Part shown: one piece after another, positions 7,819-27,289 of the stretch
Layout of the letters: each line of letters opens with the position of its first letter
How positions within the stretch are numbered: the stretch's first letter is position 1
Source: Alphaproteobacteria bacterium
Lineage (GTDB): Bacteria; Pseudomonadota; Alphaproteobacteria; Reyranellales; JAQSWP01
DNA: 36,531 nucleotides
Assembly: GCA_029266575.1 (NCBI GenBank)
Contig: JAQSWP010000036.1
Coordinates: 1 to 36,531 of the forward strand
Reading direction: 5' to 3'
Notes under the pieces: generated by a model
Seen by the model: only the letters and a program-made list of their open reading frames with translations
Databases searched by the model: none
What the model was told of the DNA's origin: nothing
Made by a program: the position numbers and the translations under genes

Positions 7819-8922
7819 CTAGAGAACCAGCCGCAGCTGCTCGTCTTCCGCCGTTTCGTCGTCGTCCTCCTCCTCGTCGCGATCCTCGTTCAGGGAGGAG
7901 AGCGTGATGCCCAGCAGGCGGATTTGCTTGGGGATGGGGAACACCGTGCCGAGCAGCGCGAGCGAAAGCTGCTCCAGCATCGCCTGAGTTTCGATCGGCG
8001 TCGTCTCGGTGCGGCGGCGGGTGATGATTTCGAAATCGGCGTATTTCACCTTCAAGGTGACGGTACGGCCACGCACGCCGGACTGCTCGCAATAGCGCCA
8101 CAGCTTGGCGACGATCGGCAGCAGCCTGTCGCGCGCCTCCTCGAAGCTCCTGACGTTTTCGAAGAAGGTGTTCTCCGCCCCGGCCGATTTGCGGATGCGG
8201 TGCGGGCGCACCTGGCGCTGGTCGATGCCATGCGAGAGGTTGAAGTAGTACGGGCCGGACTTGCCGAAATTGGCTTTGAGGAACTCCAGGCCTTTCTCTT
8301 TCATGTCGGCGCCGGTGCGAATCCCCAACCGGTGCATTTTGGCCTCCGTCGCCGGCCCGATGCCGTGGAACTTGCCCACGGGAAGCGCTTCGACATAGGC
8401 CGCGCCTTTGGCCGGCGTGATGACGAACAGCCCGTCGGGCTTGCGCTCGCCCGATGCCATCTTGGCCAGGAATTTGCAGTAGGAGACCCCGGCCGACGCG
8501 GTCAGCTGCGTTTGTTCCTTGATGCGCGCCTTGATCTGCTTCGCCACTTCGGTGGCGGACGGAATGCCCATCAAATTCTCGGTGACGTCGAGATAGGCCT
8601 CGTCCAGCGACAGCGGCTCGACCAGCGGCGTGTAGGACCGGAAGATCTCGCGGATCCGCTGCGAGACCTCGCGATAGACCTCGAAGCGCGGCTTGACGAA
8701 CACCAGGTCGGGGCATTTGCGCCGCGCCGTCACCGAGGGCATGGCCGAGTAGACGCCGAACTTCCTCGCTTCGTACGAGGCGGCCGCCACCACGCCACGT
8801 TCGCGAGCGCCGCCCACCGCGACCGGCTTGCCGCGCAATTCGGGATTGTCGCGCTGCTCCACCGACGCGTAGAAAGCGTCCATGTCGACATGGATGATCT
8901 TGCGCATCGGCGCGTCGGTCAC
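7819..8922 (-). CDS. dinB: DNA polymerase IV (Y-family)
   Basis: A 367-residue Y-family translesion polymerase. Catalytic carboxylates are visible in HVDMDAFYASVE (D13) and SLDEAYLDV (D107, E108); KPDGLF, the helix-hairpin-helix region and the little-finger domain follow. The C terminus is a very acidic linker (DEEEDDDE) followed by QLRLVL, a canonical sliding-clamp-binding peptide. The start is GTG with GGAA 7 bases upstream; ATG five codons later is an alternative. It follows the second dctM by 65 bases on the same strand and may be read through from that operon. Its job, error-prone bypass of DNA lesions, is unrelated to the catabolic neighbours. Confidence 0.95.
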   Translation of the reverse strand: MTDAPMRKIIHVDMDAFYASVEQRDNPELRGKPVAVGGARERGVVAAASYEARKFGVYSAMPSVTARRKCPDLVFVKPRFEVYREVSQRIREIFRSYTPLVEPLSLDEAYLDVTENLMGIPSATEVAKQIKARIKEQTQLTASAGVSYCKFLAKMASGERKPDGLFVITPAKGAAYVEALPVGKFHGIGPATEAKMHRLGIRTGADMKEKGLEFLKANFGKSGPYYFNLSHGIDQRQVRPHRIRKSAGAENTFFENVRSFEEARDRLLPIVAKLWRYCEQSGVRGRTVTLKVKYADFEIITRRRTETTPIETQAMLEQLSLALLGTVFPIPKQIRLLGITLSSLNEDRDEEEDDDETAEDEQLRLVL

Positions 8923-19716: not shown

Positions 19717-21438
19717 CTAGCTGGTGCGCACGTAAACCGCTTCGCAAATGACGTTCAGCACCGCCTGGCGCTTCTCGGCCTGCACCGCGTGCAGCGCCCG
19801 CTTCAGCGCCGCCGGCAGCTCGGCCGGATCGCTGACTTTCTCGCCATAGCCGCCGGAAGCCTCGACCAGCTTCTCGTAGTCGGGCGAGGGTTCGAGGCAG
19901 GAGAAGGTCGGCTGGTTGTCCTTGGCGGCGTGGCCGTGCGGGTACATCGACAGAGTGGCGCGATGCACCGCCGCCCAGCGCGCGTTGTTGAACACGACGG
20001 TGAGGAACGGCAGCTCCATGGCGCGCGAGACGAAATGCGTCGGCGTAGGATTGCCGAACATGTAGGTGCCGTCGCCGACGCAGACCACGATGGTGGCGTC
20101 GGGCTTGGCGAGCCTGTAGCCTAGCGCCGCGCCCATGCTCCAGCCCAGGCCGCCGGCCGGGCTGTGCGAGAAATAGGTGCCGGGCCGGTCGAAGCTGACC
20201 TGCTCCAGCACCAGCGGATATTCGTTGATGATGATGGTGTCGCCGCTCTTGGCCTGTTCGATGCAGGTCGAGACCCATTTCGGTGTCATGATCGCCGGCG
20301 TCTTGAGATCGTCGGCTACCGGCTTCCACGACGGCTTCTTCTGGAACTCGCGCACGCGCTCGGCGCGTTCAGACAGCGCCTTCTCCGCCGTCGCCGCGCC
20401 CGCCAGCGTAGCAAGCGAGGCGGCCGGATCGCCGGTGATGGCGAGATCGGCCTGGAAGCCGCGGATCGGATAGCGCGCGAAGAGCGGATCCATGCCGATA
20501 TGCACGACCTTGCACGAGGCCGGCAGGTCGACCTGCTCGGGCAGCCACGGCACGTCGCTGTCGGCCACGATCACCAGGTCGGCATCCTTGAGGAACGGGT
20601 TGGGGTCGTAGCCGCAATGCATCGGGTGATCGTCGGCCAGGCACAGATAGCGCGGGCGATACTGCACCACCGGCACTTTCTGGCGCGTGGCGAAATCGGC
20701 CAGCGCGGTGTAGCTGGCAAGATCGCGACCGATATTGGAGGTGATGATCACAGGCTTCCTGGCCTGCGCCAGATAGTGCGAGGCCTGCGCCAGCGACTTG
20801 GGGTCGCCGTGCGGGGTGGCGGCGGGCGCGATGCTGGAGCTGACATCCAGTTTGTAGCCGTTCATGCCCGACGCCAGCACTTCGCGCGGCAGGGTGAGGT
20901 AGACCGGGCCCTTGGGATCGGACTGCGCCAGCGCGATGGCGCGATCGACCACGGTCTCCAGCTGCACGGGCTGGCGCAGTTCGTAATCCCATTTCACGAA
21001 CTCGCGCACCATGGCGCCCTGGTCGAACATCTCCTGCGCCCAGTTGATGTAGTTGTTGCGCCCGCCCAGCATGCCGGACTCGACAATGGGAGTACGACCG
21101 GCGGTGAACAGCACCGGCACGTTCTGGCGCGCGGCATTGATGATGCCGTTCATGGCGTTAGCGGTGCCTAAGCCCACATGCACCATCACCGCCTGCATCC
21201 TGCCGGTCGCCATGTAGTAGCCATGCGCCATGGCGATGGCGACGTTCTCGTGCGGCGCCAACACCGGGATCGGATAGGAGGCATTGCCGGTCTTGGCCTT
21301 GGAATAGGCCTCGATGATCGGCGGGAAATCCGTGCCGGCATTGCCGAAGATGTAATCGATGCCGCGACTCGACAGCAGCGACAGATAGGCTTCGGCAACA
21401 GTCTCTTCTGGTTCGGACACTGACATTTCCTTTTTCAT
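19717..21438 (-). CDS. Thiamine diphosphate-dependent enzyme (acetolactate synthase/decarboxylase-like)
   Basis: A 573-residue protein of the ThDP enzyme superfamily. The N-terminal PYR domain holds the glutamate that activates the cofactor (E64 in APHENVAIAMAHG); the middle domain spans about 200-350; the C-terminal PP domain has the GDG...NN metal/diphosphate motif (VGDGTYMF at 454-461, FNN at 483-485). The family includes acetolactate synthase, benzoylformate decarboxylase and oxalyl-CoA decarboxylase. No FAD-specific feature was recognised, so a 2-oxo-acid decarboxylase or C-C lyase is as likely as a ligase. ATG overlaps the stop of the acyl-CoA synthetase gene (ATGA). An aldehyde product passed to the adjacent ALDH is an inference from gene order. 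Confidence 0.88.
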   Translation of the reverse strand: MKKEMSVSEPEETVAEAYLSLLSSRGIDYIFGNAGTDFPPIIEAYSKAKTGNASYPIPVLAPHENVAIAMAHGYYMATGRMQAVMVHVGLGTANAMNGIINAARQNVPVLFTAGRTPIVESGMLGGRNNYINWAQEMFDQGAMVREFVKWDYELRQPVQLETVVDRAIALAQSDPKGPVYLTLPREVLASGMNGYKLDVSSSIAPAATPHGDPKSLAQASHYLAQARKPVIITSNIGRDLASYTALADFATRQKVPVVQYRPRYLCLADDHPMHCGYDPNPFLKDADLVIVADSDVPWLPEQVDLPASCKVVHIGMDPLFARYPIRGFQADLAITGDPAASLATLAGAATAEKALSERAERVREFQKKPSWKPVADDLKTPAIMTPKWVSTCIEQAKSGDTIIINEYPLVLEQVSFDRPGTYFSHSPAGGLGWSMGAALGYRLAKPDATIVVCVGDGTYMFGNPTPTHFVSRAMELPFLTVVFNNARWAAVHRATLSMYPHGHAAKDNQPTFSCLEPSPDYEKLVEASGGYGEKVSDPAELPAALKRALHAVQAEKRQAVLNVICEAVYVRTS

Positions 21439-23494
21439 TGACCACGCTCGACCAGCGCGTCGGCGATGACGTAAGCGCCGGCCGTTGCAGCCATTACCGG
21501 ATTGAGATCAACCGAGGCGATGGCGCCCTTGGCGCCGGCGACCAGGTCGGCAAGTTTCATCGCCAGCTGCGCCAGTGGCTTGAGCTCGTAACGCTTCTCG
21601 CCACGCACCCCCGCGAACAGCGGCGCGATCTGCAGCCGTTGCAGGGCGCGCAGCACGTCTTCTTCGGCGAAGGGATGGCGCAGCAGCACCGTGTCCTTCA
21701 GCGCCTCGACGTATTTGCCGCCGTCACCCAGCATCACCAGGGTGCCGAACTGCGGATCGAAGCGGGCACCGACCATCAGCTCGCGCCGCGCCGAGACCAT
21801 GGCAGCGGCGATGACGCCGTCGTTCTCCGCTTTCAGTTCGATCAGCCGGCCGGCGATGTCCTCGTAGGCCGACCGCGCGCCAGTGGGGCCGGTAATGCCT
21901 AGCCGCACCAGCCCGTATTCCGATTTGTGCGGGAAGCTGGCGGCGGAGCCTTTCAGCACGATGCGCCCGCCCAGAATGGTCAACACGGCGGCGGCATCGT
22001 CGGCATTGCGGCACAGGCGCTGCGGCACGATCGGCAGGCCGTGCTTCTCCAGCAGCTGCATGCTCTGCCATTCGCTGAGGAACTGGTCCTTGCCGGCGGG
22101 CAGCGAGACTTTCGGCAGATCGCGGACCTTGGCGACGGGCCGGCGCATCAGTTCGGCATGCGCGGCCAGTTGCCCAAGGGCTGCAATGGCGTCGCTGTCG
22201 TGCTGGAATGTGGGAATGCCTTCGGCGCGGAACTGGTCGGCGATCTTGGTTTGCGGCTGGGCGACGGCGATGGCCTTGCCGGTCTCGCGCATGAAGGCGG
22301 CCGTGTCGCGGGCGAAGGTGGGCGTGTCGTAGCCGGTGCCGGCGATCGGCAGCGAGATGAAGTGCACATCGGCGGCATCGCCTTCTGCCAGGATCGGCAG
22401 CATGTCGGAGAACAGCTGGCGAAATCGGGCAGTGCGGATTTCAATTTCTCCGCCGTCGCCGCCTCAAAGCGCGGCAAGGATAGACCGTTGGTCTCGGCCA
22501 GATCGGCCGCCATGACGCAGCTGGCGCCGGAATTGGAGATCGCCACCAGCCGGTGCGTGCGCGGCCGCCAACCCTTGAGATACAATTCGGCCGCATTGCA
22601 CAGCGCTCGTACGTCAGGCGCGCGCCAGATGCCCTGCTGCTCGAAGAAGGCGTCGATCACTCGGTCTTCGGTCGCCAGCGCGCCGGTATGCGAGGACGCG
22701 GCCGCCTGGCCCGCTGCCGAACGTCCCGCCTTCACCGCGATGATCGGCAGATCGCGTTCGCGCGCCACGCGGGCGGCTTCGATCAGCATGTCGGGATCGA
22801 GAATCGCTTCCATATAAAGAAGCAGCAGCTTGATGTCGGGGTCCTGCGCCACGGCGAGGGCGAAATCGGCGACGGTGAGATCGCTCTCGTTGCCGGTCGC
22901 ATGCGAGTGGCGCACGCCGATGCCGCGCTCGCGCAACAGCGCATAGGGCACCACGCTCATGGCCCCGCTCTGGCTGACGATGCCGATCGGCCCGTCCTGC
23001 GGCGGCACTTCGTTGAACATGGTGGCGAAGGAAGCCACCGCGCCCAGCGAGAAGTTCGCTATGCCCTGCGTGTTGGGACCGACCAGCCGCATATCGGCGG
23101 CGCGCGCCGTGTCGACCATGCGATCCTGCGCGGCACGCCCCTCGGCGCCGATCTCGCCGAAACCCGACGTCATGATCACGCCGATGCTTACACCCTTGGC
23201 GGCGCAGGCTTCGACGGCTTGCACCGCGGCCATGCCCGGCACGGCGATGATGGCGAGGTCGGGCGCTTCGGGCAGGCTTGCGATGGAGGAATAAGCGCGA
23301 TGGCCCTGGATCTCGTCGCGGTTGGGATTGATCGGATAGACCCGTCCGCGATAGCCGAAACGCTGCAGATAGGCGATGGGACGGCCGCCGATCTTGTGCG
23401 GGTTCTCCGACGCGCCGATCACGGCGATGGAGCGCGGCTGCAAAGCGGCCTGCTGCCAGTCCGACGCCATCGGCTTGCGGGCCGGCGCGTTCAT
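21435..23494 (-). pseudogene. Acetyl-CoA synthetase (ADP-forming)-like acyl-CoA synthetase, frameshifted
   Basis: The N-terminal part (from ATG 23494, overlapping the upstream stop as ATGA) encodes the CoA-binding and succinyl-CoA-synthetase-like domains: SIAVIGASENPHKIGG, GPNTQGIANF, GIVSQSGAMS, and the catalytic His in SSHTGALA. Near 22411-22422 the family similarity jumps to another frame, which supplies the rest, including the ATP-grasp domain (MQLLEKHGLPIVPQRL, GGRIVLKGSA, SVDLNPVM) down to 21435. The conserved NPxD stretch expected at this point is absent from all three frames, so a deletion of some 40-60 bases (not a multiple of three) fits better than a single-base error. The intact enzyme would form an acyl-CoA from acid, CoA and ATP. 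As read, the N-terminal frame runs on to a stop at 22148. Decay, or an assembly fault. Confidence 0.82.
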
Positions 23495-25524
23495 GCGGCG
23501 CCTCGCGTCATATGACGTACAGGGGGCTTCTTGCCGCTCTCGCGCTCGGCCTGCGCCTTGCCGGCCAGGTACTGCTTCGGCCACCATTGCTTGGCGAAGC
23601 CCTGCTCCACCGCAGCCTTCAAAGTCCACGACGCGTCGGTGAGATGCGGCCGAGCCAGCGCGCAGAGATCGGCGCGGCCGGCGGCGACGATGGAATTGAC
23701 CTGATCGGATTCGGTGATGGCGCCGACGGCGATTGTGGAAATGCCGACTTCATTGCGGATGCGATCGCTGTAAGGCACCTGGAACATGCGGCCGTAAAGG
23801 GGGCGCGAGGCGCGCGTGGTCTGGCCCGTCGAGACGGTGAGGGCATCGGCGCCGGCCGCCTTCAGGATGCGCGCCAGTTCCACAGCCTCCTCGCCCGTCA
23901 AGCCGCCGTCGGCCCAGTCGGTGGCGGAGATGCGCACGCTCAAGGGCTTGTCCCAGATCTTGCGCACGGCTTGCAGGATGCGCCCGGGCAGGCGGGCGCG
24001 ACGCTTGATGTCGCCGCCGAATTCATCGCCCCGCTTGTTGGTGAGCGGACTTATGAAAGACGACAGCAGATAGCCATGGGCGAAATGCAGCTCGATCATG
24101 TCGAAGCCGCAAAGCAGCGCGCGCGAGGCGGCGGCGACGTATTGCCCTTCAAGCATGTCGATATCGGCCGCCGTCATTTCCTGCGGCGTCTGATTGCGCG
24201 GGCCGTAGGCGATGTCCGAGGCGGCCAGGATCGGCCAGTTGCCCTCGGGCAACGGCTCGTCCATGCGCTGCCAGCCCAATTGCGTCGAGGCTTTCGGCCC
24301 GGCATGGCCCAGCTGGATGCCGATCCTGGCCGGCGAGGCCGTGTGGACGAACGCCACGATGCGACGCCAGGCATCGACATGGGCATCGTCGTAGAGACCG
24401 GCACAGCCCGGCGTGATGCGGCCTTCGGCCGAAACGGCCGTCATCTCGCTCAGGATCAGCCCGGCGCCACCCATGGCGCGGGCGCCCAGATGCACCAGAT
24501 GGAAGTCGTTCACCAGCCCATCGGTGGCGGAATACATGCACATCGGCGACAGCACGACGCGGTTAGCGATGGTCATGTCGCGCAGCCGGAACGGAGTGAA
24601 CATCGGCGGCGCGGTCTCGTTGAGTCCGGCATCGCGGGCGATCGCAGCCTCGACCTCGGCCACCAGTGCGGGATAGGTCTGCGCCATGTCCTCGTGGCCG
24701 GTGCGCTGACTGGCAGTGAGCAGGCTGTAGGCGAAACGCGGCAGTGGCAGCCCGGCATGGCGCTGCGGCGTTGCGAACCAGTCAAGCCGGTTGCGCACGC
24801 CATGCTGGGCGGCGGTGACGATCTTCTGGCGCTGCTCGGCGAAGCTCGCCTTGGCATCTTCCGACGCCAGCGCCATGGCCAGCGCCTCGATCAGCGCCGG
24901 CTGCTGCTCGGCCGCGCCCAGGCACAGCGCATCGTCGGCCAGGCCAAGATCGAAATCGCACGGTGCGGCCTTGGCCAGCGTGAAGGCCACGGCCCCCAGC
25001 CCAGCCTGGCGCAGCAGCGCAGTCGCGTCCGGCTGCGCGCCGTGCGGCCATAGCAGCTCGATCCGTCCAGGATAGAGTCGCAGATGGGCCGGCGAATCGC
25101 CGGCAAACACCAGTTGCACGCTGGAGGAACCGGCCACAGTCGGGGCGACGGCTAAGCCTGCCTCGCCTGGTCCGGCAATCAGCGCCCCTGCAGGCGGCGA
25201 TGCCGCCGGGGCGATGTCGGCATTGCGCGCATTGTGCCTGAGGAAGTCGATCAGATGGCGGGCGACGGGAACGAGATCGCTCTCGCCGCACTCCACACGG
25301 ACGCCATCGCGAATGACGACCAGCGGCAGCCGCGACGCCTCGGCCAAGAGCGTCTTCAGCTCGGGAAACGCGCGCTGCAGCCAGGCGCGCGCGGCGCCGG
25401 AGATCGGGCGCGGCGGCGTGTCGTTCTCAACTGCAACGCTGAGCTGCAGCGTCGGCGCGGCCTGCTGCAGCCGCAGCGCCACAGCCAGTCCGAGCCAGCC
25501 CGCTATGTCGACATGCAGCCGCAT
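23491..25524 (-). CDS. Old-yellow-enzyme oxidoreductase with decayed N-terminal FAD-monooxygenase domain
   Basis: A 677-residue, two-part protein. Residues about 308-660 are an OYE-type FMN enzyme: SPMCMYS (C329, Y331), QLGHAGPKAS, HFAHGYLLSSFISPLTNKRGD (H480, H483), the YqjM-like class. Residues 1-300 follow the flavin monooxygenase half of salicylyl-CoA 5-hydroxylase/2-aminobenzoyl-CoA monooxygenase-reductase proteins: RNRLDWFATPQRHAGLPLPRFAYSLLTASQR aligns with the end of that half in part. But the expected GxGxxG near the start reads DIAGWLGLA, and the GD and FSIGSGT segments are degenerate. At 300 rather than about 390 residues it probably no longer binds FAD. The stop overlaps the synthetase start (ATGA) and the start overlaps the Rid stop (TGATG). 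Ene-reduction of an aromatic or alicyclic acyl-CoA is a reasonable guess. Confidence 0.85.
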   Translation of the reverse strand: MRLHVDIAGWLGLAVALRLQQAAPTLQLSVAVENDTPPRPISGAARAWLQRAFPELKTLLAEASRLPLVVIRDGVRVECGESDLVPVARHLIDFLRHNARNADIAPAASPPAGALIAGPGEAGLAVAPTVAGSSSVQLVFAGDSPAHLRLYPGRIELLWPHGAQPDATALLRQAGLGAVAFTLAKAAPCDFDLGLADDALCLGAAEQQPALIEALAMALASEDAKASFAEQRQKIVTAAQHGVRNRLDWFATPQRHAGLPLPRFAYSLLTASQRTGHEDMAQTYPALVAEVEAAIARDAGLNETAPPMFTPFRLRDMTIANRVVLSPMCMYSATDGLVNDFHLVHLGARAMGGAGLILSEMTAVSAEGRITPGCAGLYDDAHVDAWRRIVAFVHTASPARIGIQLGHAGPKASTQLGWQRMDEPLPEGNWPILAASDIAYGPRNQTPQEMTAADIDMLEGQYVAAASRALLCGFDMIELHFAHGYLLSSFISPLTNKRGDEFGGDIKRRARLPGRILQAVRKIWDKPLSVRISATDWADGGLTGEEAVELARILKAAGADALTVSTGQTTRASRPLYGRMFQVPYSDRIRNEVGISTIAVGAITESDQVNSIVAAGRADLCALARPHLTDASWTLKAAVEQGFAKQWWPKQYLAGKAQAERESGKKPPVRHMTRGAA

Positions 25525-25931
25525 CAGGTGGGCTCGCGCGCCAGCATCGCGGTGGCTTTGATCTCGATCAGGGCGCCCTTGCGGATCAGGCCGGAGACCA
25601 GCACACCGGTGGCGGCAGGCCAGGGTGGGCCCTTCAGCATCTCGCGGCGGATAGCGGCGGTCTTCTCGTAGCCTTCGAAGGTGGTGACGTATTCGGTGGT
25701 GTCGACGATATCGGCCAGCGAGCCGCCGACGCTTTCCAGCAGCCGCTGCATCTTGCCCAGGATGTAGCGCGTCTGTTCGGCCAGATCGCCTTCATGCACC
25801 AGTTTCATGGTGTCGTCGGTGGCGGTGAGGCCGGAGATCCACACCATGCGGCCGACGCGGACCGCCGGCGAAAAAGTCAGGCGGCCGGAGGCTTCGACGC
25901 CAGGATAATGGATCGGAACGAACGCGCTCAT
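25524..25931 (-). CDS. Rid family protein (RidA/YjgF superfamily), non-canonical
   Basis: A 135-residue single-domain protein with the Rid fold signature (LTFSPAVRVGRMVWISGLTA, the VTTFEGYEKTAAIRREML region, ALIEIKATAML). Canonical RidA hydrolyses reactive enamines and imines using a conserved Arg; here that position reads PAATGVLV (T108), while the conserved Glu is kept (E123). It thus belongs to the Rid subgroups without the catalytic Arg, whose activity is uncertain. ATG has AGAGGAAACC before it. It sits between a MaoC gene and the OYE/monooxygenase gene; Rid genes often accompany 2-aminobenzoyl-CoA or aromatic amine pathways, which agrees with the neighbour. Confidence 0.88.
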   Translation of the reverse strand: MSAFVPIHYPGVEASGRLTFSPAVRVGRMVWISGLTATDDTMKLVHEGDLAEQTRYILGKMQRLLESVGGSLADIVDTTEYVTTFEGYEKTAAIRREMLKGPPWPAATGVLVSGLIRKGALIEIKATAMLAREPT

Positions 25932-25939
25932 GGTTTCCT

Positions 25940-26428
25940 CTAACCGCTCATGCGCAGCAGATAGCGGTGAAAGCCTTCGGCCAGGACTTCGCCCTTGTCG
26001 TTGACGACGGCGATGGAGAAAGTCACCACGCCGCTCTTCTTCTCCGACTTCAACGCCACGCTCTCCACCACGAAGCCGGTGCTGACTCGATCGCCGACCA
26101 GAGCGGGGGCGCGAAACTTCATGCCCTGCTCGAGGAACGCCACCATCGATTCTTGCAGCCGGTCCGATAGCGGCGTGGCGCCAAGTGCTGTGATCGACGT
26201 CACCAGCAGGCCGTGCGCCAAGCGCTTGCCGAAGCGCGACTTGGCGGCGTAGGCGTCGTCGTAGTGGATCGGGTGGCGGTCGCCGGTGAGCTCTGCGAAT
26301 TGCCTGAACTGCGGATCGCCCAGCACCACGGATTGCCCGGCGTACCGCTGGCCGACGGCGAAATCCTCGGCGTAGAGCTGCGACGTGCCCTGCTCCAGCT
26401 TCGCCATGGGTTCAGCGTTGGCCGCCAT
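25940..26428 (-). CDS. MaoC-like (R)-specific enoyl-CoA hydratase
   Basis: A 162-residue single hotdog-domain protein of the MaoC dehydratase family. The hydratase 2 motif is complete: ELTGDRHPIHYDDAYAAKSR with catalytic D50 and H55, then FGKRLAHGLL. The family adds water to trans-2-enoyl-CoA, or removes it, usually as a homodimer. ATG 26428 has GAGGCCGG upstream; ATG 26407 is an alternative that would remove seven residues. It is spaced 8-9 bases from each neighbour in the operon. Confidence 0.92.
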   Translation of the reverse strand: MAANAEPMAKLEQGTSQLYAEDFAVGQRYAGQSVVLGDPQFRQFAELTGDRHPIHYDDAYAAKSRFGKRLAHGLLVTSITALGATPLSDRLQESMVAFLEQGMKFRAPALVGDRVSTGFVVESVALKSEKKSGVVTFSIAVVNDKGEVLAEGFHRYLLRMSG

Positions 26429-26437
26429 GTCCGGCCT

Positions 26438-26776
26438 CTAGCGGTCTTCGAGCACGGCGCGGCCGATAACCGTCACCTCGTCCTTAACGCGCTCGACCAC
26501 CGAACCGTCGTCCTTCAGCTCGACGATGAGCTTGTCGCCGGGGCATACCGGGCCGACCCACTTGGTGTGGAGCTTGCCGCGATAGAACCAGTCCTTGCCG
26601 TATTTCTTCATGGCGAGATCGCACACGAAGGCCGACAGATGCGGGCCGTGCACCAGGGTGCCGCGGAAGCCGCGCTTGAGGCAGTACTCGTGGTCGTAAT
26701 GGATGATGTCGTTGTCGCCGTTGATCTTGCCGTAGAGATCGATCTTGGCCTGGTCGATGGGAATTTCGCGCTGCAT
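26438..26776 (-). CDS. MaoC-like dehydratase, catalytic half
   Basis: A short 112-residue hotdog protein with an intact D-x4-H dyad (INGDNDIIHYDHEY: D21, H26) and RGTLVHGPHL. It is shorter than a complete MaoC protein. The gene directly upstream encodes a hotdog protein without the dyad, which is the layout of heteromeric MaoC-like hydratases such as the ChsH type, where one subunit carries the catalytic residues and the other a degenerate hotdog. The ribosome site (GAGAGA) is weak and may rely on coupling across the 20-base gap. Substrate unknown; an enoyl-CoA or beta-hydroxyacyl-CoA is expected. Confidence 0.88.
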   Translation of the reverse strand: MQREIPIDQAKIDLYGKINGDNDIIHYDHEYCLKRGFRGTLVHGPHLSAFVCDLAMKKYGKDWFYRGKLHTKWVGPVCPGDKLIVELKDDGSVVERVKDEVTVIGRAVLEDR

Positions 26777-26796: not shown

Positions 26797-27246
26797 TCAG
26801 GAAGGAACGTGGAAGGTGTTGACCATGGAGGCGATGGGCGTGCCGTCGGCGCGCTTCCATTCCGCTTCCCAGCGCACGTAGCGCCGGCCACGCTTCTCGA
26901 ACTTGTCGGCCACCTTGCCGGTGACGACCATGTCGGTGGTCTCGTCGGCCCAGATCGGGTTGCGCCAGCGGAACTCGACCTCGGCCATGACAATGCCCTG
27001 GATCGGCGGATATTTCCGATAGAGCGGCACGGTCATGTAGGGGAACAGCACGTTGGGCGGCGCCGCCAGGCGACCGTCGAGCTTGTAGAGCGAGCGGTCG
27101 GCTTCGACCGAATCGAAGTACTCCTCGACGATGGCCGGCGTGATGGTGAAGCGCAGTTCTGGCAGGGCTGCGCCGACAACGAACGCGTCGTAGGGCGTGC
27201 CGGGCACCGAATCTTCCCGCGGCTTCAACTGGTCGGGTCTCGTCAT
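26797..27246 (-). CDS. MaoC N-terminal-like (FAS1-type) dehydratase, non-catalytic half
   Basis: A 149-residue hotdog protein of the MaoC N-terminal/FAS1-like dehydratase type (AAPPNVLFPYMTVPLY, IVMAEVEFRWRNPI, GKVADKFEKRGRRYVRWEAEW). It lacks the D-x4-H dyad, so it probably provides the second hotdog of a heterodimer with the product of the next gene. ATG 27246 is chosen over ATG 27252 because GGAGG then has a normal 7-base spacing. First gene of a roughly 13-kb operon, with the promoter C palindrome 44-58 bases upstream. Confidence 0.85.
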   Translation of the reverse strand: MTRPDQLKPREDSVPGTPYDAFVVGAALPELRFTITPAIVEEYFDSVEADRSLYKLDGRLAAPPNVLFPYMTVPLYRKYPPIQGIVMAEVEFRWRNPIWADETTDMVVTGKVADKFEKRGRRYVRWEAEWKRADGTPIASMVNTFHVPS

Positions 27247-27289
27247 CTTCATTCCTCCGGAAAACCGTCCCGCTTTGAGTTGACTCTAT

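Follow-up and report, generated by a model that had tools for sequence, protein, structure and literature searches.

An OYE-Type Reductase Carrying an Eroded Flavin Monooxygenase Half in an Alphaproteobacterial Gene Cluster

Introduction

The bifunctional proteins of the 2-aminobenzoyl-CoA monooxygenase/reductase family are a known example of hydroxylating and then hydrogenating an aromatic CoA ester. The window analysed here, a stretch of 36,531 nucleotides from a Reyranellales bacterium (contig JAQSWP010000036.1), contains a gene of this type in which the reductase half is intact and the preceding FAD monooxygenase half is strongly altered. Does the altered half still serve a function, or is it the remnant of a lost hydroxylase carried along by its fusion partner? 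The case would illustrate the decay of a flavin domain whose fusion partner stays under selection, and a natural reductase-only version would allow the reductase reaction to be studied free of the oxygenase. It also holds a warning for annotation, in that the protein could be mislabelled "salicylyl-CoA 5-hydroxylase". The source genome is a metagenome-assembled one of 316 contigs, 82% complete.

Gene Structure and Family Assignment

The gene is a genuine open reading frame of 677 codons with an ATG start, read on the minus strand from 25524 to 23491, and its frame is open throughout, as described in the initial annotation. That annotation had also recognized the family of 2-aminobenzoyl-CoA monooxygenase/reductases or salicylyl-CoA hydroxylases. 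Indeed, the best NCBIfam match of the whole protein is NF006101, bifunctional salicylyl-CoA 5-hydroxylase/oxidoreductase (654 bits), which spans residues 218-668 of the query and positions 306-761 of the model. The curated cut-off of 1078 is not reached by the 677-aa protein; full-length relatives score 1310-1316 and match from residue 1. Some 88 positions of the model have no counterpart and the first ~205 residues stay unaligned, in line with the deficit of some 90 residues estimated at first sight. A frameshift was excluded as the cause of the shortening, the missing segments being absent from all other frames.

The reductase half (residues 305-655; 23560..24612, minus strand) matches Oxidored_FMN (PF00724) at residues 308-638 with an E-value of 2e-63, and this OYE domain is the sole Pfam domain seen. 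The catalytic His480/His483 pair, Tyr485, Tyr331, and Cys329 are all retained, together with 120 of the 132 columns that are at least 90% conserved across full-length proteins. The earlier description of a "normal OYE" is correct as to intactness and imprecise as to type, since 32 of the 37 residues that tell the reductase half of the bifunctional family from stand-alone OYEs are present (any one of the 37 is found in under 30% of the examined stand-alone OYEs). Given the conserved catalytic and family-specific residues, the OYE half has probably remained a reductase of a CoA thioester like those used by the bifunctional family.

In a tree of OYE halves, the gene nests within the bifunctional family, apart from stand-alone OYEs. 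Its nearest sister group is formed by full-length proteins from another family of the same class (support 0.77). Because the OYE half is nested beside full-length members, the erosion of the monooxygenase is read as secondary, and the gene is, as judged from its sequence, a descendant of the 2-aminobenzoyl-CoA monooxygenase/reductase family. The position equivalent to Cys25 of XenA is variable in this family: it is occupied by Ala in 45 of 61 members and by Cys in 12 of 61, with Cys scattered over the tree. Residue 329 of the present protein is Cys, whereas the nearest relatives have Ala.

What Remains of the Monooxygenase Half

The profile of full-length relatives aligns from residue 206 onward only. 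Residues 206-304 (24613..24909, minus strand) are recognizable as the helices that end the monooxygenase half; they share 32% identity with relatives, compared with 54-60% among the relatives themselves, and keep 16 of 31 conserved columns. This last third is, by sequence comparison, the sole unambiguous stretch of the half. The N-terminal two thirds (residues 1-205; 24910..25524, minus strand) are eroded and have no family match, and only 19 of the 95 conserved columns before residue 206 are kept. Identity to relatives is 27% over residues 1-35, 16% over residues 36-118, and 20% over residues 119-205, against 59-62%, 56-58%, and 60-62% among relatives, respectively. The reductase half stands at 59% against 66%.

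The flavin motifs are lost. The GxGxxG dinucleotide motif, GGGPAG in relatives, is aligned to IAGWLG at residues 7-12 (25489..25506, minus strand), in which the first Gly is lost and the other two are kept. The initial annotation had reported the disappearance of this motif, and the same holds for the DG and GD motifs, replaced by PG at residues 119-120 (25165..25170, minus strand) and by LA at residues 183-184 (24973..24978, minus strand). Pfam FAD_binding_3 has no match in the 677-aa protein and matches the sister protein at 4e-22. To judge by these losses, the monooxygenase half appears too decayed for FAD binding, and the protein almost certainly cannot hydroxylate.

How far homology extends into the eroded region can be gauged by profile alignment. 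Residues 1-120 score better than 3000 of 3000 shuffles, and 11 of 583 unrelated real N-termini score equally; for residues 1-35 the figures are 2999 of 3000 and 5 of 583. Homology of residues 1-120 to the monooxygenase half is likely, with a weak resemblance, and it is accepted mainly because the segment is placed correctly ahead of the unambiguous residues 206-304. Homology across the whole of residues 1-200 was rejected, as 35 of the 583 unrelated N-termini do as well, which equals background. Residues 119-205 are unrecognizable as monooxygenase at the level of sequence.

The composition of residues 1-205 has shifted as well. The Ala fraction is 0.195 versus 0.09-0.15 in relatives, double that of most of them; aromatic residues plus Cys and His are roughly halved (0.083 versus 0.14-0.18); and GC at the first codon position is raised (0.79 versus 0.60-0.70). 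This shift, observed in the single known sequence, fits relaxed constraint. The GC contents of the three codon positions are 0.79, 0.53, and 0.80, the second differing from the first and third, so that some protein-level (folding) constraint may remain on the region.

It had been suggested that an open frame speaks for a retained function of the N-terminal half, which is a weak inference. The eroded half precedes the reductase in one cistron with the same start, and a stop codon or frameshift within it would therefore abolish the conserved OYE half too. Selection on the reductase alone thus holds the frame open, and in-frame deletions and substitutions are tolerated.

Predicted Structure

AlphaFold2 was run with a 54-sequence family alignment, which may steer the fold of the N-terminal half. 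In this model, most of the OYE barrel exceeds a pLDDT of 90 and superposes on solved OYEs at 1.2-1.6 Å, and the helices of residues 208-300 reach a pLDDT of about 70-96. A beta-alpha-beta unit (strand 2-6, helix 10-22, strand 27-30) is predicted with a pLDDT of 71-82, and residues 119-207 stay below 50 with no confident fold. Prediction of residues 1-305 from the single sequence is uninformative (mean pLDDT 41). Foldseek with the whole model returned only OYEs among the matches listed and is therefore silent on the N-terminal half.

Structure prediction had been proposed as a check, and neither an intact FAD site nor an unrelated topology is seen; the model lends modest support to a monooxygenase-like topology. 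CoA-ester binding by the N-terminal half, also put forward initially, is unsupported, as no substrate-domain fold is predicted for residues 119-207.

Gene Neighborhood

The fusion gene has tight junctions on both sides, overlapping its neighbors by 1-4 nt, and is for this reason probably expressed. Upstream, the stop codon of a RidA/YjgF-like protein (25524..25931, minus strand) overlaps the fusion start in TGATG, and two MaoC-type hydratases follow at 25940..26428 and 26438..26776 (both minus strand). No Arg is present in the PAATG stretch of the RidA-like protein, where the catalytic Arg of deaminating RidA proteins is expected, so that imine hydrolysis is uncertain. Farther upstream, beyond the MaoC pair, an ORF of 151 aa (26797-27252, minus strand) has no NCBIfam or Pfam match and is reminiscent in sequence of a third hotdog/MaoC-like protein.

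Downstream, the start of an ADP-forming acyl-CoA ligase overlaps the fusion stop in ATGA. This ligase (21435-23494, minus strand) is split into two overlapping frames with a junction near 22400, where a frameshift is apparent: the CoA-binding part lies at 22148..23494 and the ATP-grasp part, in another frame, at 21435..22403 (both minus strand). The first frame follows the alpha model as far as position 343 of 447, and what looks like the remainder stands at the beginning of the second. The break looks like a short out-of-frame deletion around CGATTTCGCCAGC and would stem from a recent mutation or from a collapse in the assembly.

A RidA-like homologue with 49-51% identity is encoded at another locus (L151, 9805-10215), between two MaoC genes and adjoining a different putative CoA ligase. 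The gene order suggests that MaoC-RidA-MaoC-ligase is a recurrent module. A conserved operon like that of the window was not found around the full-length relatives.

Searches for Further Examples

The complete monooxygenase half is kept in 61 of the 61 full-length relatives examined. A search for truncated homologues, as advised in the initial annotation, yielded no second eroded example among 76 genomes of the order, 385 of the class, 399 of the phylum, 4 of the sister's order, GTDB contigs, and plasmids, and no match in these searches reached residues 1-195 beside the conserved tail. With one exception, the open frames recovered are full-length or, at a few loci, short, with a contig end close by in at least two cases. 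The exception is a 396-aa frame at about 8184-8456 (minus strand) of locus L124 (G749), which matches the monooxygenase tail at residues 204-294; no OYE match is present at that locus, and the frame is possibly a stand-alone counterpart of the monooxygenase half.

A second bifunctional enzyme was not found in the organism's own genome, whose fragmentation and 82% completeness mean that absence is not proof. Five other proteins of this genome are above the FAD_binding_3 cut-off, none of them on the same contig; none is strongly similar to the monooxygenase half of the family, the best reaching 52 bits. A published description of an eroded variant was not found in the literature searched. The protein is an unusual single case within a known family of fused enzymes.

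Interpretation

The preferred reading, with a probability of roughly 0.6, is that of a reductase-only, secondarily monofunctional enzyme with its N-terminal half left as a remnant scaffold. The ancestor would have been a bifunctional aryl-CoA monooxygenase/reductase of the ordinary kind, whose FAD hydroxylase half would have become non-functional in this lineage. Unconstrained substitution and the in-frame loss of about 90 residues would have eroded that half, while selection would have kept the FMN/OYE half as an NAD(P)H-dependent CoA thioester reductase in a protein that would bind FMN only. With the hydroxylase gone, the substrate must come pre-oxidised or be non-aromatic; the candidate would be an unsaturated and probably cyclic CoA ester, either dearomatised beforehand or non-aromatic, which the neighboring CoA ligase would form and on which the MaoC hydratases and the RidA-like protein would act. 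What is left of the N-terminal fold, mainly residues 206-304, would serve at most for packing or as a dimer scaffold, and a scaffold or interface role for this better-kept segment is plausible. The more specific proposal that a class A flavin monooxygenase domain became a cofactor-free scaffold for a dedicated CoA-ester reductase, within a new RidA-MaoC-CoA-ligase catabolic operon, is tentative and on balance doubtful. Several points count against the preferred reading. The broken-looking ligase may point to decay of the entire operon or to an assembly fault, the AlphaFold2 support for residues 1-118 depends on the family alignment, and the residual codon-position difference in residues 1-205, seen in the single known sequence, may reflect protein-level constraint.

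That constraint would be expected if the N-terminal half were a retained pseudoenzyme, an FAD-free fold kept by selection because it supports dimerisation or offers the CoA ester to the reductase. The second-position composition of residues 1-205 is still coding-like, the predicted order of elements in 1-118 and 206-300 follows the monooxygenase fold, half of the conserved columns in 206-304 (16 of 31) persist, and the Azoarcus enzyme, which is full-length, forms a homodimer (PMC4539516). The reading is nevertheless rather unlikely, as residues 119-207 have no confident fold, merely 19 of 95 conserved columns survive in 1-205, and a second genome with the same N-terminus was not found among those searched. 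Alternatively, translation could begin internally, for example at the in-frame ATG of residue 217 (24874..24876, minus strand), giving a 461-aa reductase and leaving residues 1-216 as an untranslated or hardly translated relic. This ATG sits where recognizable homology begins and is preceded at plausible spacing by GATCGAGG (duplex energy -5.9 kcal/mol), but a four-base match arises easily by chance, the 216 codons are open with coding-like position bias, and ATG 1 and the RidA stop overlap in TGATG, a usual signature of coupling, so that an internal start is improbable. Least credible is an assembly error or recent pseudogene, in which a contig mis-join or collapse would hide a normal or dead gene. 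A frame change, with what looks like a small deletion, divides the ligase next door, and the genome is as fragmented and incomplete as stated above; however, the substitutions are spread across 205 codons and the frame is unbroken there, the missing segments occur in no frame, the gene junctions are intact on both sides, and the OYE half is well conserved.

Comparison with Known Systems

The closest counterpart is the 2-aminobenzoyl-CoA monooxygenase/reductase of the Azoarcus evansii type (NF006101), with which the protein shares the two-part order, an OYE half of 59% mean identity, and the helical end of the monooxygenase half. It differs in being about 90 residues shorter and in the loss of the FAD motifs. 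The surroundings differ too: an ADP-forming CoA ligase and MaoC hydratases are found here, whereas the sister's cluster contains AMP-forming ligases, an enoyl-CoA hydratase, and an SDR.

Among solved structures, VioD-type class A FAD monooxygenases (3c4a, 8gqr) are closest to the N-terminal half found in full-length members, and the N-terminal half of the present protein has no match to these structures. XenA/YqjM-type ("thermophilic-like") OYEs, such as 8pun and 3hf3, have a similar FMN barrel (1.2-1.6 Å rmsd, ~40% identity), the HxxH motif, and Cys at the C25/C26 position; in contrast, they stand alone, without an N-terminal half. Type III aryl-CoA reductases belong to anaerobic pathways, and to our knowledge they have no monooxygenase half. 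These enzymes, likened here by description, act on naphthoyl- and phenanthroyl-CoA and offer a precedent for OYE-family proteins that reduce aryl-CoA thioesters (PMC13365417).
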